Source of the DNA: Ornithinibacillus caprae | GTDB taxonomy: Bacteria; Bacillota; Bacilli; Bacillales; Amphibacillaceae | NCBI RefSeq assembly: GCF_009728145.1 | Contig: NZ_WOCA01000002.1 | Location: 1-64,000 of the forward strand | Reading direction: 5' to 3' | DNA length: 64,000 nt | In this document: piece by piece, positions 26,575 through 60,434 of the stretch | How the letters are laid out: each line of letters starts with the position of its first letter | How positions within the stretch are numbered: the first letter of the stretch is position 1 | Program-made: the position numbers and the translations under genes | Notes under the pieces: model-generated | Databases searched by the model: none | The model's input: the letters and a program-made list of their open reading frames with translations, nothing else | Told to the model about the DNA's origin: nothing

Positions 26575-29500
26575 ATGACGAGAAGAATTTTATGTAGTTT
26601 AATTTGTTTTTTCCTTATACCTACCTTCGTTTTCGCTGAAACTAGTGATGATGTAGATGTTGAAAATGAGACTGATTTAGTTGAGGAAGTACAAGATCCT
26701 ACGTCACAGGAAGACGATGTCAACCTATCGACTGAACTTTCGGTGAGTAACGAGGACGAAGCAGAGGTAGAAAAGGAAGAAGAAGCAAGGGAAGTATCTA
26801 CAACAAGTAGTACGAAAACTCCAGATGAATGGTATGAAGAAGGGATGAATGATCCTTCTGCAACCAAAAGAGTCGAAATTTTCGAAGAGGCTTACAGTTA
26901 TTATCCTGAAAACGAAAAAATCATCTCAGGATTAAATGAAAGTGTAAGAAATCTATTAAATTGGGCTAGTGGTAAGCACAATAGTGGGGATTTTGATACA
27001 GCTATCGATAGATATAATTATATAATAACTGTCGAGGGGATAAGCAGTACTTATAGTGATGAAGCATCATGGAAAAAAGAATACGCTATTAATAAAACGA
27101 ACTACCCTACAGCAGATCAACTTTATGATGAGGCTATGTCAGAATCGACAGCTTCTGGTAGATTTGATGCATTTATAGAAAGCTATACGTACTATCCCAA
27201 TAATAAAAGAATTTTAGAAGGTCTTCGTTCAAGTGCAGAGTTATTATATAATTGGGCAATTAAGCAACATGGCCTTAGAAAGTTTGATACGGCAATTGAT
27301 AGATATGAACGACTACTTACTTCTGATGCACTTACCTCTAGCTTTCTTTCAAAAGTAGAATCTCGTCTGAATGAAGCACTCCAAGAGAAAAGGCCTCCGG
27401 AGATTATTTATGAAGAAGCAAAAAATGAATATAGTGCATCTAGAAAATTAGAACTTTATATCGAGGGATATGACTCCTATCCAGATAATACAGACTTCAT
27501 CAATGGAGTGAATGACAGTGGCAAGTTGTTGTTGAGTTGGGCAAGAGGGCAACATCAATCTGGTAAATGGAGTACAGCAATTGACCGTTATCTTAAGATC
27601 CTAGATAGTCCAGTGACATCTAAATCACTTCAGGATTCAGTTGCTTTGCATTTAGAGAAAGCAGAAAATCGTAACACTATCCCGACTGCTACTTCACTAC
27701 GTGAGGAATACAAAAAACAGACAAAAGTATCGGAAATCTTCAGAAAAAGTGTTGAGAACTTTCTTTATTACCCAGAATCTGAAAAGTTTGAAACAGAAAT
27801 GAATCATGCAGCAGAACAACTATTAATTTGGGCTAGAGGTAAACATGATAACGGTGACTTTACTACAGCTAAAAATAGATATGAGATCATTATATCTACA
27901 ACATATATCAACGAATCGATTAGAAATAAAACAGAATCGCTACTATCCGATGCAGAGGTTGGCAAGCGTTCCGCGGATGCTATTTATCAGGATGCGGTAG
28001 AAGAAGGTAGAGCATCTTATAAGTTGAATCTTTTTATAAATGGATATGAGTTTTATCCAGATGATCAGCGTTTCATTAAAGGGATTCAAGATAGTGCTGA
28101 AGCATTATTTGATTATGCGGTAAGAAAACATAATGCTGGTGATTTTGTTACTGCAATTGAACGTTACGAAATAATATTAGCTTCACCTTCCATATTAGAC
28201 TCCACTAGTGAAAAGACGCAAGGTAAATTAGCGGATGCTAAAATTGGTAAACGTCCTGCAGATGTAATCTATAACCTGGTCAGAGAAGAAACAACAGCAT
28301 CGGGCTTATTTGAAATGAATAGTCAAGGGTATTATTTCTATCCAGAAGATGATCGATTCATTACTGGGTTAGCAGAGAGTTCAAAAAAATTACTTGAGCT
28401 AGCTGAACGTTACCATTCACAAGGAAGATTTACTGATGCAAATTCTCGCTATGAAAAATTATTAATTACAGAAGGTGTTCCAGATAGTTATGAAACAAAA
28501 GCAATGTATCTTCAAAAGTATTCTGTTGAAGAAAAGCTTGCACCTAATGCAGAAGATTATGAGGCACTTATCGAGAAGGAAGCTACTATTTCTGGAAAAT
28601 TGGATATAGCTGTTGAAGGCTATTGGATTTATAGTGAGAAACCTCTTATGGTTAACCTTGTTATAGAGAATGCATATGGATTATTAAAATGGGCAACAGG
28701 AGTTCACCAACGTGGTGATATCACTACTGCTCTCAATAGATATAATAGAATACTAGATTTACCTGTGAAAAATGATGATCTAATCACGGAAACTACTTTA
28801 AAGAAAAGTTATGCTGATTCGGGGGAAGTTTTACCAACTGCGGATCAAATTTACAATGAGGCACAAGAGGAAACAAGAGCATCCTATATATTTGATCTAT
28901 ATGTTAAAGGTAATATCCTTTACCGTAATGATGAAAGATTTAAAGTTGGAATTGAAGAAAGCTCTATTTCTCTTCTAAACCTAGCTATTCGCTATCATGA
29001 TAGTGGTCAATATGATAGTGCGATTGATCGTTATGATACACTAATATCTACAGTAAGTGTTCCTAGTCATATTAGTTTAGAAGCAGAACTTAGAAAACGC
29101 TATGCTAAAAATAGTCAAATAGTTCCTAAAGCAAATGATTTGTATAATTTAGCATTAAAACATACCACAGTTAGTGGGAAATTTGATGCATTTGTTGAAG
29201 GATACGTAATCTATCCGTCTGATGAAAGGTTTGTAAGTGGGTTAGAAATTAGCGCATATGATTTATATAAATATACAATTAGAATTCACAAAAATAAGGA
29301 CTTCCGTGGAGCTATAAGTCGGTATGAGAAGCTAATTAATTCACCTGGTATTCCTGATTATATTGTAGAAGGAGCATTAGCAAACCTAGAATATGCTAAA
29401 GATCGAATTGTTCCTGTTAGCCAAATGATTAACTTTACGGAATATAATATTAGTCTTCAGGATGCCTTGAGTATACAAATGAAGGTTTCACCACAAACGG

Positions 29501-30519
29501 ATAAATATATTGGGGTACCAGCTTTTGCGCATGGTAACTATATTCGAATTATTCAAGATTCACAAATTTCCGGATCAACCGTTAATGTAAGGACCGCTCC
29601 AATTCTAGAGGATAAGTATGTTTCTAAATCCCTAAATGGAGGAACAAAAGTAGAAATTTTGGACCGAGTAGTGGGAGATAGCTTTAGCGGGAGTAAGTTA
29701 TGGTATAAAATTGATTATAATGGAGAAATATTATATGCTCACACATTATTAGTTGATCCAGCTATTGGTGAAACTACAGCAAATGTAAATATGCGAATGG
29801 AACCAGATTCAAACAGTCATAGTTTTGGAACAATGTCTAAAGGAAGTAGAATTACGATTATAGGTAGCACAGGTAATTGGTATAAAGTTATCTATGACAA
29901 AGACTGGAAGAACGCAACAAGTAACGATACGGAGTATTATTTAGATCCAACAAATTTTATTAATGATAATAACCAGAAGTATCAATTTCTTGATCTTAGA
30001 TATTACACAGGTATTCCATCATCGGAACTAAAAGACTTATTAAAGGGAAAAGGAAAATTAGATGGAATGGAAGATGTTTTTAGAGAAGCAGCAAAAAGAG
30101 CAGGGATTAATGAGTTATACCTTATTTCACATGCTCTACTAGAAACAGGACACGGAACATCAACACTTGCTAGAGGAGTAGAATATAACGGCAAGACCGT
30201 TTATAACTTCTTTGGAATTGCGGCAGTTGATGGTAATGCGGTTAATGGAGGAGCGAAAAGAGCTTATGAAGAAGGCTGGTTCACAGTAGAAGATGCCATT
30301 ATTGGTGGAGCAGAATTTGCAAAACAAAAGTACATTTATGCTGGGCAAAATACCCTATACTCTATGCGTTGGAATCCAGCTAAAATGGACCAAAATGGAT
30401 ATGCTACCCATCAATATGCAACAGATATAGGCTGGGCTTATAAACAAGTTGCATATTATACCCGTTTTTATTCCAAAGGAGATTACAATCTAATCTTTGA
30501 TATTCCTGTCTATAAGTAA
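26575..30519 (+). CDS. Secreted GH73 N-acetylglucosaminidase with nine ~95-aa repeats and SH3b domains
   Basis: 1314 aa. ATG 26575 follows AGGAGG (26562-26567). Signal peptide MTRRILCSLICFFLIPTFVFA, then an acidic stretch (~23-80). Nine tandem repeats span ~82-945, each with a GY..YP motif, LLxWAxxxH, and AIDRYxxIL, usually ending in P before the next unit. Two SH3b-like domains follow (~1000-1130; VNVRTAPIL, VNMRMEPDSNSHSFG). The C-terminal glucosaminidase has the catalytic Glu at about 1190 (SHALLETGHG), as in LytD/LytG-type enzymes. Probably remodels peptidoglycan beside the surface-polymer machinery. The same repeats are found in the M14 protein at 57057. Confidence 0.88.
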   Translation: MTRRILCSLICFFLIPTFVFAETSDDVDVENETDLVEEVQDPTSQEDDVNLSTELSVSNEDEAEVEKEEEAREVSTTSSTKTPDEWYEEGMNDPSATKRVEIFEEAYSYYPENEKIISGLNESVRNLLNWASGKHNSGDFDTAIDRYNYIITVEGISSTYSDEASWKKEYAINKTNYPTADQLYDEAMSESTASGRFDAFIESYTYYPNNKRILEGLRSSAELLYNWAIKQHGLRKFDTAIDRYERLLTSDALTSSFLSKVESRLNEALQEKRPPEIIYEEAKNEYSASRKLELYIEGYDSYPDNTDFINGVNDSGKLLLSWARGQHQSGKWSTAIDRYLKILDSPVTSKSLQDSVALHLEKAENRNTIPTATSLREEYKKQTKVSEIFRKSVENFLYYPESEKFETEMNHAAEQLLIWARGKHDNGDFTTAKNRYEIIISTTYINESIRNKTESLLSDAEVGKRSADAIYQDAVEEGRASYKLNLFINGYEFYPDDQRFIKGIQDSAEALFDYAVRKHNAGDFVTAIERYEIILASPSILDSTSEKTQGKLADAKIGKRPADVIYNLVREETTASGLFEMNSQGYYFYPEDDRFITGLAESSKKLLELAERYHSQGRFTDANSRYEKLLITEGVPDSYETKAMYLQKYSVEEKLAPNAEDYEALIEKEATISGKLDIAVEGYWIYSEKPLMVNLVIENAYGLLKWATGVHQRGDITTALNRYNRILDLPVKNDDLITETTLKKSYADSGEVLPTADQIYNEAQEETRASYIFDLYVKGNILYRNDERFKVGIEESSISLLNLAIRYHDSGQYDSAIDRYDTLISTVSVPSHISLEAELRKRYAKNSQIVPKANDLYNLALKHTTVSGKFDAFVEGYVIYPSDERFVSGLEISAYDLYKYTIRIHKNKDFRGAISRYEKLINSPGIPDYIVEGALANLEYAKDRIVPVSQMINFTEYNISLQDALSIQMKVSPQTDKYIGVPAFAHGNYIRIIQDSQISGSTVNVRTAPILEDKYVSKSLNGGTKVEILDRVVGDSFSGSKLWYKIDYNGEILYAHTLLVDPAIGETTANVNMRMEPDSNSHSFGTMSKGSRITIIGSTGNWYKVIYDKDWKNATSNDTEYYLDPTNFINDNNQKYQFLDLRYYTGIPSSELKDLLKGKGKLDGMEDVFREAAKRAGINELYLISHALLETGHGTSTLARGVEYNGKTVYNFFGIAAVDGNAVNGGAKRAYEEGWFTVEDAIIGGAEFAKQKYIYAGQNTLYSMRWNPAKMDQNGYATHQYATDIGWAYKQVAYYTRFYSKGDYNLIFDIPVYK

Positions 30520-30536
30520 TAAGCAAACTAATTTAG

Positions 30537-30570
30537 ACTACCTATTGTTAATTCAATGGGTAGTTTTTCT
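30537..30570 (+). terminator. Terminator after the glucosaminidase gene
   Basis: ACTACCTATTG (30537-30547) pairs with CAATGGGTAGT (30554-30564) with one wobble, then TTTTCTTG. Confidence 0.8.
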
Positions 30571-30592
30571 TGTTTTTTACAATTGTGGTTCA

Positions 30593-30621
30593 TTGACATG
30601 ATATACTCTATTAAGTATTAT
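30593..30621 (+). promoter_or_regulatory. Consensus sigma-A promoter
   Basis: TTGACA (30593-30598), 17-base spacer, TATTAT (30616-30621), upstream of the asparagine-synthase-like gene. Confidence 0.75.
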
Positions 30622-30682
30622 GTTACTATTCAAGTTACATAAATATATAGTGAATTTGGTGCTATAATTAAGGAGGGACGAT

Positions 30683-32095
30683 ATGAATTCTAATATTATG
30701 AGATATCGTTTTGGGTTTGCGATATATAAGAACACCTCGCGTCCTAATTTGGACGAAATCAAAAATTGGGACAAGTTTGAAACAAATGGATATTATATAC
30801 ATACTCATCCGGAAGTGAATGTTCAAACAGTCGAAACTAGTCATGGAACTGCAATATTGATCGGTGAAGCGTTTGTATGTAAAGGAAGAAAAAAGTTAAC
30901 TCATATCATTAAAGTCCTATTGAAGGAAGATAATTGGGAAGCATTTAATTGTATTACTGGAAGATTTGCTTTATTCCTTATTACCGCATCACAGGCAAAA
31001 ATACTCCATGATCCCTTCGGATCTAGAACTGTATATTATTTGCAAAATGGGGAGGTATGTGTTGCTTCACATTCAGCTTTAGTAGCTTCCTTGTTTAATG
31101 AAAAAGTTAGTGAGGAGGCAAGGAGTTTTATAAAATTGCCTGAATATAAAGCGAGGGGTACAGGTTATCTTCCTGGTGATGTGACCATGTATGATAATAT
31201 TAAAGCTTTGGTACCTAATAACTTTTATGATATGAATGAAAAAAAGACAGTTCGGTATTGGCCAAGAAAACCTATAAAGACGGTGTCTACACGCTACTTT
31301 TTAAAACAATGTGATCGGTATCTTTTTAGCTTCACCCAATATTATTCCCCAAAATATAATTTACTACTTGGACTAACAGGAGGAGTAGACACTAGAGCAT
31401 TGGTTGCTGGAATAATGGGAAAAGGTGTAAAGCCTAGGTTAATAACTTGGACAGGTAAACGGCTTCCAGAAAAAGAGGTGCCAATAGTAGCTAAAATGAA
31501 GGAACATCTTGGGTGTCCTCATGTATACTTAGATCCTTCGGAAAAAATGGATAGTGATACATTTACAGATATTGGTAAACAAGCTAGTGCTGCAACTGGT
31601 TATTCAAGAGGCTTTTCAAGATTAACAGCGCATATGGGCGAAGTGGTTCAACCTAATGAGGCTTTTGTTCGTGGATTTGGTGGAGAAATCATTAGAGGTT
31701 TTTACAGCAGACATAAGACCTCTATGTCAGGAGACCTGATAAAGGACTTTGTTAATTTATATAAAACAAAAAGAATAAAAGAACCTGGTGAAGAATTTAT
31801 TAATTTTGTAACAGAATCAACTAAAGGGTTTATAGAGAGAGCAAATTATAGTAATGGAATGTTTAATGTAGATGTAAGTGATTTATTTTACTGGGAGCAA
31901 CGAATGGGTATGTGGGGAGCCAATATGCTAAATGAGATGGATCCGGCAATATATTCATTAGTAGGATTTAATAGCCGCCCGTTATATGAATCTGCTTTCG
32001 GTCTAGATGAAAAAGAAAGGCTTGGAGCAGAGATTATGTTGAAAATTACTGCTCGCTATGACAAGAAGTTCTCTGAGATTGGAGTATTATCCTAA
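30683..32095 (+). CDS. Asparagine-synthase-like protein without the glutaminase cysteine
   Basis: 470 aa. ATG 30683 follows AAGGAGGG. The N-terminal ~170 residues look like a class-II amidotransferase fold (ITGRFALFLI, LHDPFGSRTVYY) but begin MNSNIMRYRFGF, so the invariant Cys2 nucleophile of AsnB is missing. The C-terminal half has an ATP-pyrophosphatase loop LTGGVDTRALVAG, a variant of SGGxDS, and FGGEIIRGFY. Likely activates a carboxyl group with ATP and couples it to an amine. In a polysaccharide cluster that could mean amidating a uronic acid, but this is inference. Confidence 0.75.
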   Translation: MNSNIMRYRFGFAIYKNTSRPNLDEIKNWDKFETNGYYIHTHPEVNVQTVETSHGTAILIGEAFVCKGRKKLTHIIKVLLKEDNWEAFNCITGRFALFLITASQAKILHDPFGSRTVYYLQNGEVCVASHSALVASLFNEKVSEEARSFIKLPEYKARGTGYLPGDVTMYDNIKALVPNNFYDMNEKKTVRYWPRKPIKTVSTRYFLKQCDRYLFSFTQYYSPKYNLLLGLTGGVDTRALVAGIMGKGVKPRLITWTGKRLPEKEVPIVAKMKEHLGCPHVYLDPSEKMDSDTFTDIGKQASAATGYSRGFSRLTAHMGEVVQPNEAFVRGFGGEIIRGFYSRHKTSMSGDLIKDFVNLYKTKRIKEPGEEFINFVTESTKGFIERANYSNGMFNVDVSDLFYWEQRMGMWGANMLNEMDPAIYSLVGFNSRPLYESAFGLDEKERLGAEIMLKITARYDKKFSEIGVLS

Positions 32096-32659: not shown

Positions 32660-32683
32660 CATATTGACTTGGAGGTGAAAAAA

Positions 32684-34753
32684 ATGACAGAAGGAATAGA
32701 GAAGCAATTATTAGATGCTAGTGATTTACAAGAACTTTTACAAAAAAGAAATGAACTAGAGGAATTATTAGCCCAAGAGGAAGAACAAAGCATCTTTTTA
32801 GCTGAAGAAATAAAGAAGGTAGAACACCAATTACATAGTGTAAAGAATAGGTATAAACGTGAAGCAGCTTTAAGAAGTAAAAATAAAAAAGAACTTGATA
32901 AAATCAATAAAAGTCGTTCTTGGAAGTTAAGTTTACCAGTACGGAAACTTGGTGAGGTAGTAAAAAAATCTAAGGAAAATGACTCGGAAGAACAATTTAA
33001 TACAGCTGTTAAAGATATTGTAGTTCAGTCAGAAAATGAAAAATATAATGCTAGAGCTTTAGATAGAAAATTATGGGGTGGTTACTCTAATTATGCTTTG
33101 GAGGAACTTCTTGAATTAAAAAACTCAGAAAATGCCCCAATGAATGAACGTATGAGAGCAACAAGAAGTCTATCTCGTTGGTATTATGATCATCAGGAAT
33201 ACGAAAAAGCATATGAAGAACTTGAATATATTAATGAAGTAAAACCAATAAATAACCCTAATCCTGATCGTGTTATAACTGAGATTAAAGTGATGAAGAA
33301 GTTAGGTGAAATAAAGGCAGCTAGAAGAAAAGTATGGGAAGTAATTAACTCTAGAGGTCTTCAAACGAATTTATGCTTAAGTATGGCACATCTCGCTGAG
33401 GAAGAGCTAGAAAGACTAAATTGGTATAATTTAGTTTATGATAAAAATGGCTATAACCAAATTAGAAAAATTGATGAACAAAAACCATTAGATTTAGAAA
33501 ATATCTATACACCTACAACTGCAATAGATAAAGGATTAAATAAATTTAAAGTATCGGTGATTATCCCTGCCTATAATGCTGCAGATTTAATTCATATTGC
33601 ATTGGATAGTTTATTAAAACAAACCATACAAAATATAGAAATAATAGTAGTAGATGATTGTAGCCCGGATAACACTGCAGAGGTAGTTTCAAAGTACGCT
33701 GAGCAAGATGAGAGAGTTAAACTTATAAAAAAAGAAAATAATGAAGGTGCATACGCAGCAAGGAACACGGGTCTACAGTATGCAACTGGTGACTTTATTA
33801 CAATCCATGATAGTGATGATTGGTCTCATTCTCAAAAAATTGAAATACAGCTAAAAGCATTGATTAAAAACCCATCGGCAGTTGGATCGATTTCTTATTT
33901 AGTACGGGCATCAAAGGATATTTGTCCACTTAATGCTGGTTCATTATTAAGTGTAAAATTTTTAATGATGAATTCCTCATCGTTACTAGTTCGACGAAGT
34001 GTCATAGACAACCTTGGTGGTTGGGACAGCGTTAGAGTTGCTGGAGATACCGAGTTTTTATGGAGAATCGAGAAGATTTATGGTGATGAAAGTATTATTC
34101 GAGTCGAACCTACTATTCCGCTGTCCATTGCTCTATCAAATGAGAATTCATTGACAGGAACAAGCACCACACATGTAAAAACGATTCATTTCGGTTTGAG
34201 AAGAACGTATCGAGAATCCTTCCAATGGTGGCATGAACAGGCAGAGTCTGCAAAAGATTTATATATGGATCCAACTCAGGTCAATAGACATTTTCCATGT
34301 CCAGTTCCAAACATGCTCAAAAGACCAGAAGTAAGAGAATATGACATCGTTGTTATTGCAGACTTTTCGAGTGAATCTGATCAAGAATTGTTAGATGAAA
34401 TGCTTAAGAAGTTTACTAATAACTATGAAAAAGTAGCATTGTTCCATTGGCCAGATTATAATGGAAATCCTTCAAGGACAATAGCAAATAATATTTATTA
34501 CTTAGCTAGTAAACATCAGATTGATTTATTAGTTCCTAATGAAGAGATAAGCACGGAGAAAATGATATTCCTAACTCCAAGAATTTTGGATTATAAGTTA
34601 GATAGTGCTCCAAAAATCAAATATGGAAAAACATATGCAGCTGATGAGGATAAATCAAGTGAAACCAGAATGAACAGAGAGAAAAATCTAATTAAGACAA
34701 TGAATGTAAAAGATATAGAATGGTGTACAACAGAAGAACTTAAAAATATATAA
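32684..34753 (+). CDS. Long GT2 glycosyltransferase with N-terminal coiled coil
   Basis: 689 aa. ATG 32684 follows GGAGGTG. Order: coiled coil (1-75), SRSWKLSLPVR (~78-88), TPR-like helical segment (~120-260), GT2 domain from ~290 (VSVIIPAYNAADLIHIA, VDDCSPDNTA, HDSDDWSHSQKIEIQ) and a C-terminal domain (~530-689; FPCPVPNM, YDIVVIADF) shared with the protein at 24368. No signal or membrane span. With the preceding coiled-coil protein and the downstream ABC exporter it probably assembles a polymer at the cytoplasmic face. Confidence 0.8.
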   Translation: MTEGIEKQLLDASDLQELLQKRNELEELLAQEEEQSIFLAEEIKKVEHQLHSVKNRYKREAALRSKNKKELDKINKSRSWKLSLPVRKLGEVVKKSKENDSEEQFNTAVKDIVVQSENEKYNARALDRKLWGGYSNYALEELLELKNSENAPMNERMRATRSLSRWYYDHQEYEKAYEELEYINEVKPINNPNPDRVITEIKVMKKLGEIKAARRKVWEVINSRGLQTNLCLSMAHLAEEELERLNWYNLVYDKNGYNQIRKIDEQKPLDLENIYTPTTAIDKGLNKFKVSVIIPAYNAADLIHIALDSLLKQTIQNIEIIVVDDCSPDNTAEVVSKYAEQDERVKLIKKENNEGAYAARNTGLQYATGDFITIHDSDDWSHSQKIEIQLKALIKNPSAVGSISYLVRASKDICPLNAGSLLSVKFLMMNSSSLLVRRSVIDNLGGWDSVRVAGDTEFLWRIEKIYGDESIIRVEPTIPLSIALSNENSLTGTSTTHVKTIHFGLRRTYRESFQWWHEQAESAKDLYMDPTQVNRHFPCPVPNMLKRPEVREYDIVVIADFSSESDQELLDEMLKKFTNNYEKVALFHWPDYNGNPSRTIANNIYYLASKHQIDLLVPNEEISTEKMIFLTPRILDYKLDSAPKIKYGKTYAADEDKSSETRMNREKNLIKTMNVKDIEWCTTEELKNI

Positions 34754-34943: not shown

Positions 34944-35720
34944 ATGAAGAGTTATATACAAGAAATACTAATGAGAAAAGACTTATTAATATATTTAGTT
35001 AAATCAGGACTAAAAGCTGAGCATCGCAATAGTTATCTAGGTTATTTTTGGTGGCTCTTAGATCCACTGCTTAATGTTTTAGTATACTACTTCCTAGTAG
35101 TAATAGTATTAGAAAGAGGCGATGCAAATTATCCATTATTCCTAGTTATTGGACTAGTTGTATGGCGGTGGATCAGTTCTAGTATTAATGCCTCTGCAAA
35201 GTCGATTTTACGTTATAGTTCTATAATAAATCAGGTATACTTACCAAAAGCAATTTTTCCAATGTCATTTGTTTTGTCTCAATTGTTCAATTTTCTTTTT
35301 GGACTAATAGTAGTTGGAGTATTTCTTCTGTTATTTGGTGTTATGCCAGGGTGGGAATTAATATTTTTACCTTTATTAATTTTGATTACTATAATATTCC
35401 TATTTGCGGTAGGGCTTTTGCTAGGATATATCAATATTTTTGTGCGTGATATAGATAATTTATTAACATATGTCATTCGAATACTTTTCTATGCATCTCC
35501 AATTATTTGGGAAGGTGGGAGGTTACCAGCTGAATATAGTTGGGCAATTGATTATAATCCAATAGCAATAATTGTAGAGTCTTATCGTGCTATTTTAATG
35601 TACAATACAACTCCAAACTTTGTTGGGTTAGGAGTTATTCTATTAATTTCTATTGTCATAAGTGTGATTATGATTAACCATTACAGTAAAAATGAGCACA
35701 AGATAATTAAAGCTCTTTAA
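34944..35720 (+). CDS. ABC-2 type polysaccharide exporter permease (TagG-like)
   Basis: 258 aa with about six membrane spans. The N-terminal RKDLLIYLVKSGLKAEHRNSYLGYFWWLLDPLLNVLVYY is the usual amphipathic and first-TM region of TagG/RfbA permeases (YLGxxWxxLxPL). RDIDNLLTYVIRILFYASPIIW is the conserved C-terminal loop and span. It exports an undecaprenyl-PP-linked polymer with the ATPase encoded 21 bases downstream. A second, separate TagG is at 52568. Confidence 0.88.
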   Translation: MKSYIQEILMRKDLLIYLVKSGLKAEHRNSYLGYFWWLLDPLLNVLVYYFLVVIVLERGDANYPLFLVIGLVVWRWISSSINASAKSILRYSSIINQVYLPKAIFPMSFVLSQLFNFLFGLIVVGVFLLLFGVMPGWELIFLPLLILITIIFLFAVGLLLGYINIFVRDIDNLLTYVIRILFYASPIIWEGGRLPAEYSWAIDYNPIAIIVESYRAILMYNTTPNFVGLGVILLISIVISVIMINHYSKNEHKIIKAL

Positions 35721-35741
35721 TAGAAAGTGGATGATCTAATA

Positions 35742-37220
35742 ATGAATAACAAAAGGCAAATAATCCGTTCTAATAAAGTGGGAGTAGCCTTCTATTCAGG
35801 TAATAAAGATGATATAAAATCAAAGGCTTTACGTTTATTCACAAATAAAGAAAAAAATAAAAAGCAAAAAAAAGTATGGGCTTTAGAGGATATAAATTTT
35901 GCAGGATATGAAGGTGAAATTCTAGGTATCATTGGCTCTAATGGAGCTGGTAAAACTACTTTGAGTAAAGTCATCTCACGAATTCTTCAAGAAGATCGAG
36001 GAGAAATGAAAGTAGATGGAAAAGTAACTGCGCTATTTTCATTTGGAATGGGATTTAAACAAGAACTTACAGGTCGGGAAAATGTATATCTTAACGGGAT
36101 GATGCTTGGAATCGAAAAAGAAAAGATTACCGAGTACATTGATGACATTCATGAGTTCTCTGATTTAGGAGATTTTTTGGATCAGCCAATGAAGTACTAT
36201 TCTAGTGGAATGAAAGCAAGACTAGGTTTTAGTGTTGCTTCCCACCTACAGCCTGAGATTTTAATTTTGGATGAAGCGCTAAACACAGGTGATGCTAATT
36301 TTAGTAAAAAAGCTGCTGAGAAGATGAAAGAACTAGTCAAACAGGCAAAGATGGTAGTTATTGTTACGCATAGTTTAGGATATGCCAAGCGGCACTGTAC
36401 GAGATTAATATGGTTAGATGGAGGTGCGGTAAGAGAAGATGGAAATCCTGAAGAAGTAGTTAGCAACTATCAGGCCAGTCTACCTGCTGCAAAGCCAAAG
36501 AAACGTCGAATTCTAGAGTTAGAAAAAACAGAAAGTCAAATTCGTGGTAATGCTATAATAAAAGCGAATAATGTTGGAGTTTCTTTTAACTTAAAAGGTG
36601 GAGAATTTTGGGCACTTCGAAACTTAAATTTTGAAGTGAAAGAAGGAGAAGTTCTTGGTATTATCGGACATAATGGTGCTGGAAAGAGTACATTGTGTAA
36701 GTTGTTAACTAGGATTTTTAAACCTGATGAAGGAGACATTGAAATATTAGGTCAAACATCTGCGTTGTTAGGTTATGGAACAGGCTTTAATCAGCAGTTA
36801 ACTGGTAGAGATAATATTTATTTAAATGCCATGTTACTTGGTATTCCCAAGGAGCGTGTCGATGAGAAGTATGAAGAAATAATAGACTTTTCAGGAATAA
36901 GAAATGCAATTGATAAACCAGTTAAGCAGTATTCTAGTGGTATGAAATCAAGATTAGGTTTTAGCATTGCTGCAATACTAAAACCAGATATTTTTATTAT
37001 AGATGAAGCATTGTCAACTGGAGATATAAGCTTTCAACAAAAAGCTAGTGAGAGAATTCAAGAAATTATTGAAAGTGCTAAGGCAGTAATTATTGTTTCA
37101 CATAATATGAGTTTTGTTGAAAAAGTATGTACAAGAGCAATTTGGATGAGTAAAGGTGAAATCATCTTTGATGGTGATCCAGAAGTAGCTGTTGCGAAGT
37201 ATAAAGAATCAACTATTTAA
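35742..37220 (+). CDS. Polysaccharide-export ABC ATPase with two fused nucleotide-binding domains
   Basis: 492 aa from ATG 35742; GTG 35727 is an in-frame alternative. Both halves are complete TagH-type NBDs. NBD1: Walker A GSNGAGKTT (65-73), signature YSSGMKARLGFS, Walker B ILILDEALNTGD. NBD2: Walker A GHNGAGKST (~309-317), signature YSSGMKSRLGFS, Walker B IFIIDEALSTGD. The usual TagH has one NBD and acts as a homodimer. The TagH at 53458 is 271 aa with one. No extended carbohydrate-binding C-terminus is present, so this is a true tandem duplication. Confidence 0.9.
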   Translation: MNNKRQIIRSNKVGVAFYSGNKDDIKSKALRLFTNKEKNKKQKKVWALEDINFAGYEGEILGIIGSNGAGKTTLSKVISRILQEDRGEMKVDGKVTALFSFGMGFKQELTGRENVYLNGMMLGIEKEKITEYIDDIHEFSDLGDFLDQPMKYYSSGMKARLGFSVASHLQPEILILDEALNTGDANFSKKAAEKMKELVKQAKMVVIVTHSLGYAKRHCTRLIWLDGGAVREDGNPEEVVSNYQASLPAAKPKKRRILELEKTESQIRGNAIIKANNVGVSFNLKGGEFWALRNLNFEVKEGEVLGIIGHNGAGKSTLCKLLTRIFKPDEGDIEILGQTSALLGYGTGFNQQLTGRDNIYLNAMLLGIPKERVDEKYEEIIDFSGIRNAIDKPVKQYSSGMKSRLGFSIAAILKPDIFIIDEALSTGDISFQQKASERIQEIIESAKAVIIVSHNMSFVEKVCTRAIWMSKGEIIFDGDPEVAVAKYKESTI

Positions 37221-41642: not shown

Positions 41643-42695
41643 TTAATAGGAATCACTTTCTGACTCATTCTGTAATGCATTAACACTTCCTGTATTAGCA
41701 TCCTTATCTTCTATGATTTCTAAATGTGTTTGTAAAGTCTGCTTTGTTTCATTTAGAGCTAACTCATCTAATTGCCAGTAATAAACATTTGCAGGCTGAT
41801 GATCATGCCCTTCTAGAGTCATTGAATCGATATCGAGGTTGCTTCCACTAGTTGCATAGGATAAAAAGCTTTTCATTTCATTAAAAGATAAGTTAGTTGT
41901 CATATTATCGCCTACAGCTTCAATTACATCATCTAATTTCATAACTGAACTAACAGAAGTTGCTTTTTTAGCTACAGATTTAATGATATCCATCTGTCTT
42001 TTACCACGTTCTATATCATTATCTAGTTTTCTCGTACGTGCTAATGCAAGTGCTTCTTCACCATCTAACAATTGTTCACCTGGTAATAAGTGAATAGAGT
42101 TTTTCTTATCATTTGAATCCGATTCCCAAAATTCATACGGTACGTCTACTGTAATTCCATCAATTGCGTTTACAACATCAACGAAGGCATGGAAATTCAA
42201 TTTTACAAAATAATCAACAGGTATATCTAATAAGTTCTCAACCGTCTCAATTGTTGCTTGTGGTCCACCAAAGGCATGAGCATGAGTGATTTTATCTTCA
42301 TAACCGACCTCTGGGATAAACACTTTAGAGTCACGAGGAATACTTAGTAACTTAACACTCTTATCCTTTTTGTTTAATGTTGCTAGGAGTAGGGCATCAG
42401 ATCTAGAATCACCAGCATTGTCACGGTGGTTATTTTCATCCACACCTATTATAAGAATAGAAACATTATCCTCTGTTGGATCAACTTTTGAATCCCTTAA
42501 GTCTGATTTTTCCCTTCCGTCATCTTCATAAGAATCTGAAACTGTTGATTCAGCTTTAATATATAAAGAGATGAAATATCCAAAACCGATAAAGGCTATT
42601 AGGAATGGTATTAATATAAAGTAAATTCTTTTACGTAATTTTCGCTTTTTAGTTTGCTTCACAAGTCTAGATGGTGAAGATTCGTTTTTACTCAT
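41643..42695 (-). CDS. LytR-CpsA-Psr (LCP) family ligase, copy 1
   Basis: 350 aa. Short basic cytoplasmic N-terminus (KQTKKRKLRKR), one TM anchor (IYFILIPFLIAFIGFGYFI), then the extracellular LCP domain: ILIIGVDENNHRD, LLSIPRDSKVFIP, KITHAHAFGGP, LNFHAFVDVVNAIDGI, and ALALARTRKLDNDIERGKRQ. These Arg/Asp residues bind the pyrophosphate of the lipid-linked polymer, which LCP proteins transfer to peptidoglycan. Good AAGGGG site before the ATG. One of three LCP genes here. Confidence 0.92.
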   Translation of the reverse strand: MSKNESSPSRLVKQTKKRKLRKRIYFILIPFLIAFIGFGYFISLYIKAESTVSDSYEDDGREKSDLRDSKVDPTEDNVSILIIGVDENNHRDNAGDSRSDALLLATLNKKDKSVKLLSIPRDSKVFIPEVGYEDKITHAHAFGGPQATIETVENLLDIPVDYFVKLNFHAFVDVVNAIDGITVDVPYEFWESDSNDKKNSIHLLPGEQLLDGEEALALARTRKLDNDIERGKRQMDIIKSVAKKATSVSSVMKLDDVIEAVGDNMTTNLSFNEMKSFLSYATSGSNLDIDSMTLEGHDHQPANVYYWQLDELALNETKQTLQTHLEIIEDKDANTGSVNALQNESESDSY

Positions 42696-42904: not shown

Positions 42905-43918
42905 TTATTTAATCGAAAAGGAAATTCCAATATGGTAAAGAGAAGGATTGTTAGTTATTACTATATCTAAATGATTTTTCAGCTCCTGTTGAACCCTTCT
43001 TTTACTCTCTTCCTCTATTTGATAATACCATCCACCATTCATATAGCTGCCTTTCCCCTCAAAATTGACTGTCTCAATTTCTATATCTTTATCTAATCCA
43101 TAGCTAAGAAAACTCTTCATTTCTTGAAAGGATAAATTTGTTTTCAAATTGTCTCCAATTGCTTCGATAACATTTGATAATTTTGGTACAGATGATATCG
43201 ATGTCGTTTTTGAGATTATTACTTTAATGATTTCTTGCTGTCTTTTCCCACGGTCAACATCACTATCATACTTACGAGTTCTTGCTAAGGCTAATGCTTG
43301 TTCTCCATTTAATTTCTGATATCCAGGTGTTAAATGAATGGTGTTTTTATTATCATGAGAATCGGATTCAACGATTTCATATGGTACATCAAACAGAATA
43401 CCATCTAAGGCATCAACTACTTCGACAAAAGCATCGAAATTCATCCTAACATAATAATCAATAGGAACGTCTAAAAATTGTTCAATTGTTTCAATGGTAG
43501 ATATGGGTCCCCCATAAAAATGGGCATGATTAATTTTCGTATAGTTACCAACTTTTGGGACAAAGACATAAGTATCTCGCGGAATGCTTAATAATTTTAT
43601 GGAGCGCTCAAATTTATTAAAGGTAGCTAGTATAATTGCATCCGTACGACTGCTTTCACCATATTGTCGATGTTCACTAGTATCTGTTCCTAAAAATAAA
43701 ACGGAGACATTATCCTTAACAGGATCAACATGATCAGACCGAAGCTCTGATTTTGATTCTTTACGGTCTATTTGTTCATGTGATTCATTTACCATGTTCT
43801 CTGTTTGTTGATATAGATGTATGCTGTATCCAATAACAACTGTAATTAATAGCAATATAAAAAGTCCACTATATAATAACCAATTTCTTTTCTTTGATTT
43901 ATACTTTGTTTTTGGCAT
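42905..43918 (-). CDS. LCP family ligase, copy 2
   Basis: 337 aa, same layout as its neighbour: Lys-rich N-terminus, one TM (NWLLYSGLFILLLITVVIGY), LFLGTDTSEHRQYG, LLSIPRDTYVFVP, KINHAHFYGGP and ALALARTRKYDSDVDRGKRQ. The C-terminus is shorter and less acidic than copy 1. It is closer in sequence by eye to the LCP at 55126 than to copy 1. Separated by 209 bp from copy 1, so probably transcribed from its own promoter. Confidence 0.92.
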   Translation of the reverse strand: MPKTKYKSKKRNWLLYSGLFILLLITVVIGYSIHLYQQTENMVNESHEQIDRKESKSELRSDHVDPVKDNVSVLFLGTDTSEHRQYGESSRTDAIILATFNKFERSIKLLSIPRDTYVFVPKVGNYTKINHAHFYGGPISTIETIEQFLDVPIDYYVRMNFDAFVEVVDALDGILFDVPYEIVESDSHDNKNTIHLTPGYQKLNGEQALALARTRKYDSDVDRGKRQQEIIKVIISKTTSISSVPKLSNVIEAIGDNLKTNLSFQEMKSFLSYGLDKDIEIETVNFEGKGSYMNGGWYYQIEEESKRRVQQELKNHLDIVITNNPSLYHIGISFSIK

Positions 43919-52391: not shown

Positions 52392-52400
52392 GAAAGGTTT

Positions 52401-55090: not shown

Positions 55091-55120
55091 AAGGATGGGA
55101 GTTATGTTACCCATCCTTTA
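55090..55120. terminator. Bidirectional terminator tagA / LCP copy 3
   Basis: AAAGGATGGG (55090-55099) pairs with CCCATCCTTT (55110-55119). Confidence 0.85.
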
Positions 55121-55125
55121 ATATT

Positions 55126-56178
55126 TTAGTAGAGTCTTTGTATAGATTGAATGTCATCATAATTTTCAGCATTACTTTCCAAGTCTAAATGATCTTTTAA
55201 CGTTATTTCGATTTCAGATCTACTTTCTTCATCAGCAACATAATACCATAAGCCGTCATCCATATAGCCTCCATATCCATCAAGATTAAGAGAAGAAATA
55301 GATAAGTCGGTGCTTAACCCATAAGAAGCAAATGTTTTCATATCTTCAAATGTTAGGTTAGTAGTCATGTTCTTACCAACAGAATCGATGAGCTCACTTA
55401 ATTTGAACACAGTTGATGCAGAAGCGGCTTCTTTTATTACTGTTTTTATTATTTCTTGTTGCCTTTTTCCACGTTCAATATCACTATCATATTTTCTCGT
55501 TCGTGCAAGAGCTAAGGCTTCTTCACCATTAATTTTTTGGTACCCGGGAAGTAAATGTATGGCATCCTTTTTGTCCTTAGAGTCCATTTCGTACATTTCA
55601 AATGGAACATCATAATGGATACCTCCAAGAGAGTCGATTACTTCAATAAATGCCTCAAAATTTAATCGTACATAGTAATCTACTGGAACATGAAGGAATT
55701 CTTCTACTGTTTCAATAGCTGCTTTTGCTCCACCATAGAAATGTGCATGATTTATTTTTGTATAATAATCTACCTCTGGTACATAAGCATATGTATCTCT
55801 AGGAATACTTAATAGTTTAATATCCTCTTGTTCTTTATTAAATGTAGCTAGGATTAATGTGTCAGAGCGACTTTGTTCTTCATACCCACGTCTTTCACTG
55901 TCGTCGACACCAATTATAAGAATGGAAACATTATCTATCATCGGATCGATCGGTTCCTCTCGTAAATTGGAAACTTCATTTTCCCTACCTACATTTTTGT
56001 AAGACTCATCAACGGTTTGTTCCACCTTAAAATATATATAGGCACTATATGAAAGAGTAGTTATAAAAATGACCGTTATGGGTATTAGAATGCATAAAAG
56101 AATGATTTTTTTTTTATTTCTAGCTTTTCGCTTTTTCAACATTCTGCTCTCTTTTTGTTTTTCTTCCGACATAAACAT
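55126..56178 (-). CDS. LCP family ligase, copy 3
   Basis: 350 aa. Lys/Arg-rich N-terminus, one TM (IILLCILIPITVIFITTLSYSAYIY), then ILIIGVDDSERRGYEEQ, LLSIPRDTYAYVP, KINHAHFYGGA, LNFEAFIEVIDSLGGI and ALALARTRKYDSDIERGKRQ. It lies next to the tag operon, so it is the best candidate for attaching WTA to peptidoglycan. The two LCPs at 41643 and 42905 may serve the other polymer (inference). Confidence 0.92.
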   Translation of the reverse strand: MFMSEEKQKESRMLKKRKARNKKKIILLCILIPITVIFITTLSYSAYIYFKVEQTVDESYKNVGRENEVSNLREEPIDPMIDNVSILIIGVDDSERRGYEEQSRSDTLILATFNKEQEDIKLLSIPRDTYAYVPEVDYYTKINHAHFYGGAKAAIETVEEFLHVPVDYYVRLNFEAFIEVIDSLGGIHYDVPFEMYEMDSKDKKDAIHLLPGYQKINGEEALALARTRKYDSDIERGKRQQEIIKTVIKEAASASTVFKLSELIDSVGKNMTTNLTFEDMKTFASYGLSTDLSISSLNLDGYGGYMDDGLWYYVADEESRSEIEITLKDHLDLESNAENYDDIQSIQRLY

Positions 56179-56599
56179 ATTCCCCTCAAAAAATAAACTT
56201 ATCTTTAGTTTACTACTAAGGACTTTCTTCGTAAATATTTAATCATTAAAAGGGTAGAACTGCTTATAACTCTTTCAAGTATCATGGTTAACATAGATTC
56301 TAACTCAAGTGTTTTTTAAAGGTAATTTATAAAGGGAACATTATCTCTAGTTAAATGAGATGTAAATTTTAACAATAACATAAATTGTGTATTACTATTT
56401 ACTTAGAGTGTGTTATAATATCTTTTAAATTGTAAAAATATAACTATAACTCTTTAAAGTGAAATTTAATTCACTGTGGTTATGCTAAAAGTCCTTAAAC
56501 GAATTGGATATTGGGAAGTTGAACCCCTAAATCCTTTTAACTTTATCCACTGTTATAAAAGTGAGAGTTTACTAATTGTTAAATAAATAGGTGATATAA
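56179..56599. other. 421-bp intergenic region with extended -10
   Basis: Upstream sequences of the divergent LCP and small-ORF genes. TGT-TATAAT (TATAAT 56414-56419) is an extended -10 for the plus-strand small genes. No further gene is supported. Confidence 0.5.
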
Positions 56600-56737
56600 A
56601 TGAAAGAATTTGACCAATTACCAAAGTCAATTAAAAAGGCAGTAAGATATATAAAACAGGATGCACCAAAGGAAAAGTTAGAATTAATACAAAAAGTGAT
56701 AGAAAATGCTATAGAGTATAGAGCAAAAAAGGGATAG
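56600..56737 (+). CDS. Small hypothetical protein (45 aa)
   Basis: ATG 56600 preceded by ATAGGTG. Product MKEFDQLPKSIKKAVRYIKQ, then DAPKEKLELIQKVIENAIEYRAKKG: two likely amphipathic helices, basic, no membrane span. The spacing of hydrophobic residues looks like a real small helical protein. Followed after 13 bases by another small gene. I do not recognise the family. Confidence 0.55.
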   Translation: MKEFDQLPKSIKKAVRYIKQDAPKEKLELIQKVIENAIEYRAKKG

Positions 56738-56750
56738 AGGTGATAGGAGT

Positions 56751-56906
56751 ATGGATAAAAGAAAAAATGAAACAAAACAACTTGAAATTTTATTACGTAA
56801 TGCCTATGAAAAAGGATATAAAGGAGCTACGCTTCAGGAATTAATGGAAGATATGAAAAAGGGACTACAAAATATTACTCATGAAACGAAGAAGAGCAAT
56901 ATATAA
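56751..56906 (+). CDS. Small hypothetical protein (51 aa)
   Basis: ATG 56751 preceded by ATAGGAGT. Product MDKRKNETKQLEILLRNAYE, then KGYKGATLQELMEDMKKGLQ and a polar tail. Helical, charged, cytoplasmic. Arranged in tandem with the 45-aa gene under the same extended -10. Family not recognised. The pair resembles small regulatory or antirepressor-type proteins in size only. Confidence 0.55.
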   Translation: MDKRKNETKQLEILLRNAYEKGYKGATLQELMEDMKKGLQNITHETKKSNI

Positions 56907-57018
56907 GTCACCTCAAGTTTTTCCTAACTCCAAATATTATAGTAATAATTACTTCTGGAAATGCCTTCTATAAAGTTATTATTACTTATATAAAATAAGT
57001 TTAATTACTAATATTGAG

Positions 57019-57046
57019 AAAGCACCTAACCGAAGTTAGGTGCTTT
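57019..57046. terminator. Convergent hairpin
   Basis: AAAGCACCTAAC (57019-57030), CGAA loop, GTTAGGTGCTTT (57035-57046). Perfect 12-bp stem between the small genes and the converging M14 gene. Confidence 0.8.
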
Positions 57047-57056
57047 GCTCGCTGTA

Positions 57057-60000
57057 TTACCGATTTCTAGCTTCATCAGCTATCATTAAACCGATCGTAT
57101 TATTCTTTTTCCATATGGAATTAAAGTAAGATACTGGTACAGGTCTGTTCCCTACATATGGGGATATCTCAGGGGTTAATACCGGTCGACTTAATTCTCT
57201 TTGAGACCAATCCGACCTTCTTCCACCTCCAAGAGTCCCACGTGTGTAATATAGGGAATACCCCGTTTTTAAGCTTACTTTTTGTGCTATTTTTTTGCTC
57301 AATGTATGAAGCGAGTTATTAATACCAATTAGATCATCCCCAAAGTAAATAATTTCTCCAGATGAGTGGTAATCTACCTCTGTTTTAAAATTATGAGCTA
57401 ATGTAAATTCATAAAGAGCCCTTGATTCAGGTTCAGATAATGCACGATAGCCTTTGAAATTAGCTGGAGACGGAATTCCTGGATTGTTTTGAACTAAATT
57501 CCAGTTAGTAGAGAAGTTTCTATTTAAATCTACTCCTCTAATATTAGCTTTCCATCCGTTAAAATTAGTTTTTCCATTATTTATTTTTATTACTTCTAAA
57601 GGATTTTTTGCACTTGATGCACCAAACTGTACTAATGATACACCATCAGGATTTACCATTGGGACAAACCAAATAGATACTTCATCTAATATTTCTTTTG
57701 TATTATAGGAACTGTACGTTGTACCTTTTGCGTAAGAATATGCATACTCATCAAGCATTGTCATTAATAGATTAGTAGTCATATGTTCACGAGCATGGAA
57801 TGAACCGTTAAAGAATACTTCTTTTTTACCAAATCCTAATTTTACTGCATAAATGTTTCGACCATCAACAGACTTGCCGATGATTTCTGATGTTACTAAT
57901 TCCGGGTATTGCCTTTCTAATGTTTTAATATCATTTACCATTTGATTATATGAGTACTTAGCAACATTCCCGTTAACAACTTTTGAAGTAATGTATATCC
58001 TCTTCCCACTTTTAGCTAATTTTAAATAATTTTCTACTTGTTGTTTAATGGACTTATTAACCCCAGAAGATCCTATAATTTTATTGTATCGATCAATCGC
58101 AGTTTTGAAGTTTCCACTTTGATGTTTTGTAGTAGCCCAGTCTAGTAATAATTGAGCACTTTCATTCAATCCTGCTTTCATCTGCTTATCTCTAGGATAA
58201 TATACATATCCATTATTATAGATTTCTAGTTTACCTGAAGCAGTGGTATTTTTATTAGCATTTTCTATTATTTGAGATACGGTAGGAATTTGTTTACCTT
58301 GATTAGCATAATCAAGTTTTGTTTTTGTTTCTTTCGTTATATTACTCTTTAACACAGGGGCACTTAGTATACTCTCATATCTGCTTTTAGCAGTAGCTAT
58401 ATTCCCTAAAGAATGCTGAATAGTAGCCCAATCTAATAGAGTAATAGCACTAGAATTAATCATGTCTTCAAATTTGTTACTTCTTGGATACAACTCATAT
58501 CCTTCAATAGATCTTTCAAACTTGTCAGAGGCTTTGTTTGAATTTTCTATTTGTGTAATTAATTCTTTTTCAGTTGGTAGTGTTTTTCCTTCTAAAGCGA
58601 ATGATAGCTTCTTTTCTATTTCGTTTGAAATATTATTTTTAATACCTGATGCTTCTAAGATCTTATTATAACGATTTTTTGCGACTTCAATATTGCTATT
58701 TTGATGCTGAATAGTAGCCCAATCTAGTAGTATTAAGGCATTATTATTTAATACTTCCTGAATGCTTATACTTCTTGGATATAACCAGTACCCTTCCAAT
58801 GATTTCTCAAATTTTCCAGAGGCAGTGGTTTCGTTGTTTATTAGTTGTTGTAATTCCTTTTGTGTAGGCAGTATTTGTTCATCATTTGCCAATTCTAATT
58901 TAAGAGTTGTTTCTCGCTCTACATTAGCAGCTAATACAGGTGATTCTAATATTCTTTCATACCTTACTTTAGCGGTTTCAATATTCCCCTTTTGATGTTG
59001 GTTAGAAGCCCAATCTATTAACAGAATAATGCTATTAGCTAACCCCTCTTGTACTAATGAATTTTCGGGATAAAGATTGTGTCCTTCCAAAAATAACGAA
59101 TACTTCTCAGATACTTTATTAGAACTATTAGCTAAGCTAATTATTTGATCGGAGGTTAATTGACCTTGTAATGCAACGTTTAAATTGTCCTCCGTTTTTT
59201 GTTTAATTTCTTCTTTTAGTTTAGGAGCATGTAAAATTTTCTCATAACGGTTAATCGCAGTATCAAAATTTCTAAGTTGGTGTTGATTATCAGCCCAATT
59301 GAATAATAGTTGAGCACTTATGTTGATACCATCCCATATCTGTTGTTCCTTAGGATATAATAGATACCCTTGTAAATAGATTTCCAGTTTTCCTGAAGCA
59401 CTATTATTTTGTTCTGCTGAATATATTAGCTCATCAATCGTTGGTAATACATTTTCATTTACAGCAAACTCTAACTTATATTCTGTCATTTCTTGTACAG
59501 TAGAGTCTAATAAAGGAAGGTTTAATATACGTTCATATCTATCTTTTGCAGTATTGATATTCCCTTTTAGATGTTGACTAGTAGCCCATTCTAATAGAGA
59601 GAGTGTGCTGTTATGTACACCTTCTACTATTTCTTCGTTATCAGGATATAAGCTGTAGCCTTCTTCAAATAGGCTTAGAATTTCGGATACCTTGTTAGAT
59701 CGATTAGCTAATTCAACATAATGCTTAGGAGCTAAATGACCTTCAAGGGCATAACCCAAGTATTCCTCTGTTTTCAGTCTAAACTCTGTGTCTATTAGAG
59801 GTACATTTAGAATTGTTTGATAACGATCTGTTGCTGTAGAAAATTTTCTTTCATTATGTTGTCTATCAGCCCAAACAAATAGAAGATTAGCACTGTTTTT
59901 TAGGCCAGATTTGATCTGGTCATTATTAGGATACAAGCTAAATGCTTCACTATATTTTTGTAGTTTTCCTGAAGCGGTACTAATAGATTCGGCTGAATTA

Positions 60001-60434
60001 ATAAAATCGGATTCAGTTGGGAGTTTTTTATTGATATACTCTAGTTTTCGCTGTGTTTCTCTTGCGATAGGCTCGTCTAATTCTGGTGCACTTAGTATGC
60101 GGTTGTAGCGAATCTCAGCTACGGTTAAATTTTTTAATTGGTGTTGACGGGTAGCCCAGTCTAATAGTAATCTTGCACTTGAATTTATACCTTTTACAAA
60201 TCGTTCATCCGATGGATAATGATGATAACCTTCTATAAAAGCTTCTAGTAATGCAGATGCAGTAGTTTGTGAGTTAGCATATTCTAACCACTCATCAGCA
60301 GATAGGTCTTTGTCACTAGATTGCTCCAATATGCTTTCTGACGTCTGATCCCCAGTGTTTTCCTCACCATAAATATTGTTTGGATAAATGGTGATGGCTA
60401 CTACTAATAAAATAATTACTAGTTTTTTCAACAA
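57057..60434 (-). CDS. Secreted M14 zinc carboxypeptidase with eight ~95-aa repeats
   Basis: 1125 aa. Signal peptide MLKKLVIILLVVAITIYPNNIYG. Eight tandem repeats (~46-810), each with GY..YP, LLDWATxQHQxGN and AxxRYxxIL, ending ..P-T before the next unit; these match the repeats of the glucosaminidase at 26575. The C-terminal M14 domain has zinc ligands in FHAREH (HxxE) and DYHSSGE (His), substrate Arg region GVDLNRNFSTNW, and catalytic Glu probably in TPEI. Bacterial relatives cleave gamma-D-Glu-mDAP bonds of peptidoglycan, so a wall-peptide hydrolase is inferred. Single gene on the minus strand. Confidence 0.88.
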   Translation of the reverse strand: MLKKLVIILLVVAITIYPNNIYGEENTGDQTSESILEQSSDKDLSADEWLEYANSQTTASALLEAFIEGYHHYPSDERFVKGINSSARLLLDWATRQHQLKNLTVAEIRYNRILSAPELDEPIARETQRKLEYINKKLPTESDFINSAESISTASGKLQKYSEAFSLYPNNDQIKSGLKNSANLLFVWADRQHNERKFSTATDRYQTILNVPLIDTEFRLKTEEYLGYALEGHLAPKHYVELANRSNKVSEILSLFEEGYSLYPDNEEIVEGVHNSTLSLLEWATSQHLKGNINTAKDRYERILNLPLLDSTVQEMTEYKLEFAVNENVLPTIDELIYSAEQNNSASGKLEIYLQGYLLYPKEQQIWDGINISAQLLFNWADNQHQLRNFDTAINRYEKILHAPKLKEEIKQKTEDNLNVALQGQLTSDQIISLANSSNKVSEKYSLFLEGHNLYPENSLVQEGLANSIILLIDWASNQHQKGNIETAKVRYERILESPVLAANVERETTLKLELANDEQILPTQKELQQLINNETTASGKFEKSLEGYWLYPRSISIQEVLNNNALILLDWATIQHQNSNIEVAKNRYNKILEASGIKNNISNEIEKKLSFALEGKTLPTEKELITQIENSNKASDKFERSIEGYELYPRSNKFEDMINSSAITLLDWATIQHSLGNIATAKSRYESILSAPVLKSNITKETKTKLDYANQGKQIPTVSQIIENANKNTTASGKLEIYNNGYVYYPRDKQMKAGLNESAQLLLDWATTKHQSGNFKTAIDRYNKIIGSSGVNKSIKQQVENYLKLAKSGKRIYITSKVVNGNVAKYSYNQMVNDIKTLERQYPELVTSEIIGKSVDGRNIYAVKLGFGKKEVFFNGSFHAREHMTTNLLMTMLDEYAYSYAKGTTYSSYNTKEILDEVSIWFVPMVNPDGVSLVQFGASSAKNPLEVIKINNGKTNFNGWKANIRGVDLNRNFSTNWNLVQNNPGIPSPANFKGYRALSEPESRALYEFTLAHNFKTEVDYHSSGEIIYFGDDLIGINNSLHTLSKKIAQKVSLKTGYSLYYTRGTLGGGRRSDWSQRELSRPVLTPEISPYVGNRPVPVSYFNSIWKKNNTIGLMIADEARNR

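Follow-up and report, generated by a model that had tools for sequence, protein, structure and literature searches.

In a 64,000-nucleotide stretch of Ornithinibacillus caprae (contig NZ_WOCA01000002.1, positions 1 to 64,000; hereafter the window), two genes encoding large, putatively secreted wall hydrolases, a GH73 glucosaminidase and an M14 peptidase, were found to carry arrays of one and the same repeat of about 97 amino acids. Judging from sequence comparisons, this array is most likely a shared cell-wall anchor of secreted enzymes that work together on the wall, because known wall-binding modules fill the same slot in homologous enzymes and because neighbouring GH73 and M14 genes match in their category of anchor. 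The two genes and their parts are arranged as follows:

26575 to 30519, + strand: GH73 glucosaminidase gene, 1314 amino acids, with a signal-like N-terminus (by eye), nine units, SH3b and GH73 (translation, Pfam)
26824 to 29427, + strand: array of nine units of 95-98 amino acids, with unit starts at 26824, 27115, 27400, 27691, 27976, 28261, 28552, 28843 and 29134
29782 to 29898, + strand: the better of two SH3_3 stretches in the GH73 gene (Pfam)
30076 to 30468, + strand: GH73 catalytic domain (Pfam stretch)
57057 to 60434, - strand: M14 peptidase gene, 1125 amino acids, TTG start, with a signal-like N-terminus (by eye), eight units and the M14 domain (translation, Pfam)
57987 to 60296, - strand: array of eight units of 95-97 amino acids (unit profiles)
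57060 to 57938, - strand: M14 catalytic domain, from the Pfam start to the protein end (Pfam; nearest PDB entry carboxypeptidase T)

The GH73 array covers residues 84-951 of its protein and the M14 array residues 47-816, so that most of each chain from the N-terminus to the catalytic part is occupied by the repeat (a further in-frame ATG for the GH73 gene is present at 26548). The mean identity between units was 31.4% within the GH73 protein, 39.3% within the M14 protein and 31.4% between the two genes; units of different genes are therefore as alike as those within the GH73 protein. A profile trained on either gene alone recovered the full set of units in its partner (GH73 units at 52.7-88.2 bits, M14 units at 76.2-102.4 bits), while 1000 shuffles of each protein reached at most 6.5 and 5.0 bits, which rules out a chance origin of the repeat. 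These results confirm the nine and eight shared copies reported in an earlier sequence-only reading of this DNA. The motifs it had listed, GY..YP, LLxWAxxxH and AxxRYxxIL, also held up across 189 units (those scoring at least 50 bits, from 13 genomes), in which L44 was conserved at 97%, A60 at 98%, Y64 at 98%, R63 at 94% and H52 at about 90%. Across the window's own genome, the profile matched nothing beyond these 17 units except a single weak stretch (E 0.02).

The catalytic parts were assigned by Pfam and by comparison with solved structures. The GH73 protein matched Glucosaminidase PF01832 (3.8e-13) and SH3_3 (6.2e-16), and its nearest solved relative is a bifunctional autolysin glucosaminidase (PDB, 6.7e-46). 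The M14 protein matched Peptidase_M14 PF00246 (4.4e-38) and no further Pfam family over its cut-off; residues H880, E883, H1023 and E1089, which we take to be those of the zinc site, were invariant in nine aligned proteins. As regards a specificity for wall peptide like that of the gamma-D-Glu-diaminopimelate (DAP) type of M14 enzymes, the nearest solved relatives of this peptidase are carboxypeptidase T, and its NCBIfam match to MpaA was weak (0.006).

To describe how known modules relate to the array, we compared 80 named loci containing 81 M14-domain relatives, 10 of which bear the 97-residue array. Among the 71 repeat-less relatives, 15 have short N-termini, one (L138, cut) was left out and 55 have long N-termini, in which Pfam found SH3_4 (14), SH3_3 (9), Choline_bind_1/3 (6), PG_binding_1 (5) and SLH (3), counts that may overlap between families. 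Choline-binding, SH3b and SLH modules have described wall ligands, and although unrelated to the 97-residue repeat, they occupy the same slot on homologous M14 and GH73 enzymes. PG_binding_1 arrays (PF01471) of relatives also share this M14 slot, come in 4-11 copies and are found partly at the same kind of locus; each of the four catalytic types GH73, M14, S8 and Amidase_3 occurs with both kinds of array. Their units, however, are about 70 amino acids long and lack sequence similarity to the repeat, PF01471 having given no match in the 17 units or the two window proteins.

Within 10 kb flanks of the 80 loci, all 22 GH73-M14 neighbour pairs fell in the same anchor category (five with the 97-residue array on both, two with PG_binding_1 on both and fifteen with both in a catch-all category, "other"), a full match that random dealing would give once in 3,581,424 by our own arithmetic, related genomes not being independent. 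Five of the fifteen "other" pairs were typed, and in these both partners carry the same kind of module, choline-binding in L130 and L137 and SH3b in L110, L117 and L121. The S8 neighbour pairs comprised one with 97-residue arrays, one with PG_binding_1 arrays and ten with "other" on both sides, and a GH73 protein with PG_binding_1 in L174 (Pfam only) lies outside the 22 pairs. Ten genomes have both enzymes. Comparison of their GH73 units with their M14 units gave 37.5% identity when both came from one genome and 33.3% when they came from different genomes (permutation p 5e-5); for a single enzyme, the cross-genome identity was 32.9% (GH73) and 34.7% (M14). The common tether on complementary enzymes that the sequence-only reading had proposed is supported in so far as it would fit the matched anchors of GH73-M14 neighbours.

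Profile searches identified the repeat in 15 genomes in total, namely 5 of 159 in the window's family, 10 of 397 in the order sample (two of them common to the family set), 2 of 398 in the class sample and 2 of 299 in the phylum sample, with the window's genome counted in both of the last two. The carriers include Gracilibacillus halophilus, Alkalibacillus almallahensis, Evansella sp. AB-P1, Ornithinibacillus halophilus, Sutcliffiella horikoshii (two), Alkalihalobacillus bogoriensis, Anaerobacillus alkalilacustris and Natronobacillus azotifigens. Because the candidates scored per genome were limited to 12 in the order and class searches, 17 in the phylum search and 31 in the family search, additional repeat genes in these genomes may have been missed. 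The list holds 44 repeat-bearing open reading frames (ORFs), many being one gene seen twice. Pfam analysis of 27 repeat proteins gave 13 GH73, 11 M14, four S8 and one Amidase_3; with two double fusions, S8+GH73 (L104) and S8+M14 (L111), these counts sum to 27, and a hydrolase domain is therefore present in every scanned repeat protein, with no sign of a wide unrelated use. The other 17 ORFs are 10 second copies of included genes and seven more: L041 1-2721 and L102 1-2721, which are the same start-cut GH73 gene; L045 and L076, which are M14 by sequence; and the pieces L042, L046 and L103 22254, which are cut at a contig or locus end. Uncut proteins have 3 to 9 units per array.

Several of these proteins deserve separate description. 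L104 1-3492 of Evansella sp. AB-P1 is a natural fusion of an S8 protease, the array and GH73, and L111 8999-12712 (= L080 14747-18460) of Anaerobacillus alkalilacustris joins an S8 protease, the array and M14. L100 10911-14204 (genome G821) has seven units, several of them near-identical to one another, which points to recent intragenic duplication. L101 8139-10967 (genome G1125, outside the class) carries a divergent repeat on a GH73 enzyme, at 52.9-62.5 bits per unit. In tblastn searches that used the M14 protein alone as query, one phage record was found, with a match in the M14 domain only, and 22 plasmid records, of which the 20 listed all matched from query position 810 onwards, at the M14 end. 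No relative was confirmed when viral contigs were scanned by pattern with this protein. A phage or plasmid origin was rejected, the matches of the M14 protein there being confined to its M14 end among those listed.

The two window genes are separated by 26.5 kb that include exporter and glycosyltransferase genes, in agreement with the earlier placement of both in a single polymer locus about 27 kb apart. The polymer genes are:

21225 to 26308, + strand: four glycosyltransferase-like genes (21225, 22372, 23544 and 24368; conserved neighbours, with Pfam GT2 for 24368)
32669 to 34753, + strand: further GT2 glycosyltransferase of the locus (Pfam; conserved neighbour)
34944 to 35720, + strand: ATP-binding cassette (ABC)-2 permease of the polymer exporter (Pfam; conserved beside repeat genes)
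35727 to 37220, + strand: ATPase of the exporter, its two ABC domains fused in a single chain; serves as the locus marker (Pfam, two ABC_tran stretches)

Genes 21225, 22372 and 23544 are presumably glycosyltransferase-like, being named from their sequence. Of the other genomes in the window's family, 38 have the fused two-ABC ATPase (35727-37220), at 58-87% identity.

Whether repeat genes sit at polymer loci had been raised as a check, and this proved to be the case in 13 of the 15 genomes, in which the ABC-2 permease, the two-ABC ATPase and glycosyltransferases lie near the repeat gene as one conserved locus (G821, outside the order, included, with its exporter in locus L100); in G025 the exporter is on the same contig as a cut repeat gene. 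Two genomes are exceptions: in G273 about 41 kb separate the repeat gene from the exporter, and in G1125 no exporter gene was found within the 19.5 kb fetched around the repeat gene (L101). Locus markers lay at most 10 kb from the M14 gene in 8 of 10 cases with the repeat, but in only 3 of the 70 loci without it (p 2.4e-7). The exporter ATPase was present in 39 of 159 family genomes, including all five with repeats (Fisher p 7.2e-4). Outside the family 80 genomes were used, which are not random because G245, G273, G300, G302, G322, G336, G418 and G538 were added deliberately; the fairer sample is the 72 sequentially numbered genomes G159-G230 (their membership in the order draw is deduced from the numbering), in which the exporter occurred in both repeat genomes and in none of the 70 others.

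In relatives, the exporter locus has a different version that holds TupA (PF14305, 3.3e-67 in L182) together with additional genes of the ATP-grasp type. TupA was present in 19 of 20 fetched family loci, the remaining one being cut at a contig end, while the fetched repeat loci yielded neither TupA nor its ATP-grasp companion. The 39 exporter genomes of the family divide into five with repeats and without TupA and 34 with TupA and without repeats (p 1.7e-6); ten exporter genomes among the 80 outside the family comprise seven repeat-only, two TupA-only and one with both (G273). Pooled, the 49 genomes are 12 repeat-only, 36 TupA-only, one both and none neither (p 1.4e-10, a descriptive value, the genomes having been chosen). 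In the PF14305 search TupA was absent from 14 of the 15 repeat genomes, the window's own (G000) giving no match. TupA also occurs without the exporter, in 19 of 53 TupA-matching family genomes and in nine of the 72 sequential genomes (two of the nine below cut-off). On an exporter tree of 36 rows, with G273 counted as TupA, at least three label changes were needed and a single clade of repeat rows was rejected (approximately unbiased test, p-AU 4.5e-5), and just three independent pairs were obtained (sign test 0.25); the split is striking, yet with only three such pairs it rests on few events.

The tupA gene of B. halodurans is placed in the teichuronopeptide locus of alkaliphilic Bacillus in a published account (PMC8153356). 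The repeat loci have an exporter and glycosyltransferases in common with the TupA-type loci of relatives, but TupA itself is missing from the repeat genomes with the single exception given above. The TupA-type loci L182-L204 usually encode TupA alongside other ATP-grasp proteins that bear the motif ALEGWRRGL, and one scanned protein of this kind has an acylphosphatase domain.

We further analyzed the nature of the repeat unit itself. In scans of the 17 units and both proteins against Pfam and NCBIfam, no family spanned the whole unit, and no paper describing it was recognised in open-licence PMC text; the main text of a survey of autolysin building blocks (PMC8051824) contains neither "TPR" (tetratricopeptide repeat) nor "M14". 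The repeat is thus unnamed in these two databases, as had been suggested, and no characterised domain accounts for its full length. The accompanying description as TPR-like stood for about 34 of 97 positions: through columns 39-72, about one third of the unit, the 17-unit profile matched PDB entries of designed consensus TPRs (2.4e-6), with A60 and Y64 at TPR signature positions and H52 and R63 outside them (by eye on the consensus-TPR alignment). The GH73 protein exceeded the Pfam cut-offs of TPR_7 (35.1 vs 27.9) and TPR_14 (25.5 vs 23.5), the M14 protein exceeded no Pfam TPR cut-off, and single units gave a weak TPR_2 match in 3 of 17 (best 0.011), other TPR models matching one unit each.

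It did not stand for the unit as a whole, which is predicted to be a five-helix block rather than a row of plain TPRs. AlphaFold2 gave five helices for one unit (17 window rows; predicted local distance difference test, pLDDT, 96.6; predicted template modelling score, pTM, 0.87) and five per unit for three units (five window rows; pLDDT 95.4, pTM 0.79), at positions 2-9, 13-26, 31-53, 57-68/69 and 75-89. With the three-unit model, Foldseek ranked TPR superhelices first at template modelling (TM) scores of only about 0.2; the one-unit model returned nothing at E<=0.001, and viral structures gave no match at the same threshold. VIA-align yielded Z of about 8-10.6, for example with BamD, 14-3-3 and LapB (8-9 for these three) and with designed helical repeats, the caution level for helical repeats being about 13. 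No convincing solved relative of the whole unit was present among the Foldseek matches and the families in the VIA lists. A plain TPR array is ruled out by the unit length of 95-98 amino acids and the five predicted helices, a TPR (Pfam PF13176, PF13424, PF13174 and kin) having 34 amino acids and two helices; the near-invariant H52 and R63 are a further difference. Given the TPR-like columns, the five-helix prediction and the weak structural matches, the most fitting description is a TPR-derived solenoid whose repeat unit is unusual.

In the likely reading of the array as a shared anchor, the GH73 enzyme cuts glycan and the M14 enzyme would cut a peptide, with Amidase_3 and S8 added in relatives. 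Once secreted, each enzyme would be kept in the wall by numerous weak contacts of its array, much as homologous enzymes are by modules of the PG_binding_1, choline-binding, SH3b or SLH type, and both partners would thereby act at one place in the wall. Since their genes belong to the locus for synthesis and export of a surface polymer, the two enzymes probably act in wall remodelling at the sites of its insertion. Much more tentatively, and with doubt on our part, the array could be a new class of wall-polymer reader that places matched glycan and peptide cutters where the TupA-less polymer of its own locus enters the wall, and that is swapped for another anchor, such as PG_binding_1, on a switch to the TupA form. 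TPR scaffolds in Gram-negative polymer export, such as PgaA and AlgK, offer a parallel.

Several observations weigh against a shared anchor. Not every member of this M14 group has a recognised anchor, as at least 12 of the 55 long repeat-less relatives lack SH3_4, SH3_3, choline-binding, PG_binding_1 or SLH modules and 15 of the 71 have at most 133 residues ahead of the domain (some cut at contig ends). The matched kinds are known for only the five typed pairs of the fifteen, and G273 has a mixed pair, its M14 gene with the 97-residue array lying about 27 kb from a GH73 gene with ten PG_binding_1 repeats. Amidase_3 neighbours mismatch the M14 type (one 97-residue/other, three PG_binding_1/other), though they may be unrelated amidases. 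The two arrays of the window's genome (31.7%) and of G099 of the same genus (29.3%) resemble each other barely more, or no more, than arrays from different genomes do, and the GH73 protein carries SH3b domains as well. PG_binding_1-like arrays, absent from the repeat loci, were found in just 5 of the 23 TupA-type loci examined. TPR-type modules usually bind proteins, and the ligand could therefore be a protein.

This last point leads to a scaffold like ordinary TPRs, through which the hydrolases would dock with one another or with a complex for export or polymer attachment, without binding of wall sugar. The match of columns 39-72 to consensus TPR proteins, the top rank of TPR superhelices in Foldseek and the position of the repeat genes beside the exporter are consistent with it, but we consider it unlikely, since the array replaces modules named as wall-binding and since the M14 genes with the array in L071 and L076 have no locus markers within the approximately 19 kb fetched, even though an exporter lies about 40 kb off on the same contig. 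A rigid stalk that merely carries the enzyme through a thick wall would suit the variable unit number and the all-helical three-unit model; it appears very improbable, as H52 and R63 are near-invariant while outside the TPR signature and a spacer would need no common module on both partners.

The array might instead bind peptidoglycan, as PG_binding_1 arrays supposedly do, with the polymer-locus link a matter of operon history only. That PG_binding_1 arrays replace it on the same four catalytic types and occur at TupA-type loci speaks for this idea, whereas the strong association of the array with the exporter and with the absence of TupA makes us regard it as rather improbable. Somewhat easier to entertain, though still short of an even chance, is that the repeat/TupA split reflects shared ancestry of the loci alone and says nothing of function: three label changes suffice on the exporter tree, with its three independent pairs, but the rejection of one clade, the contrasts within genera g1 and g15 and the single exception (G273) in 49 exporter genomes argue otherwise.

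A shared wall anchor built from a helical repeat, if true, would add a new member to the short list of anchor types, and the matched anchors of GH73 and M14 provide a simple route to further wall-binding modules, by inspection of the module on the partner. The TupA/repeat split is a natural experiment on the joint change of polymer chemistry and wall-enzyme targeting. Many of the bacteria concerned live in salty or alkaline places, as judged from species names only.

Other genes of the window were also noted. Three genes of one polymer region (41643-42695, 42905-43918 and 55126-56178) are LytR-CpsA-Psr candidates, a type we assume from their sequence. The ORFs 145-1116 and 3752-4780 have a common N-terminal part of about 92 residues and differing C-terminal parts, and a transposase-like fragment (3066-3584, named from sequence) lies between them; by sequence the pair resembles a polymorphic secreted protein whose ends have been swapped.

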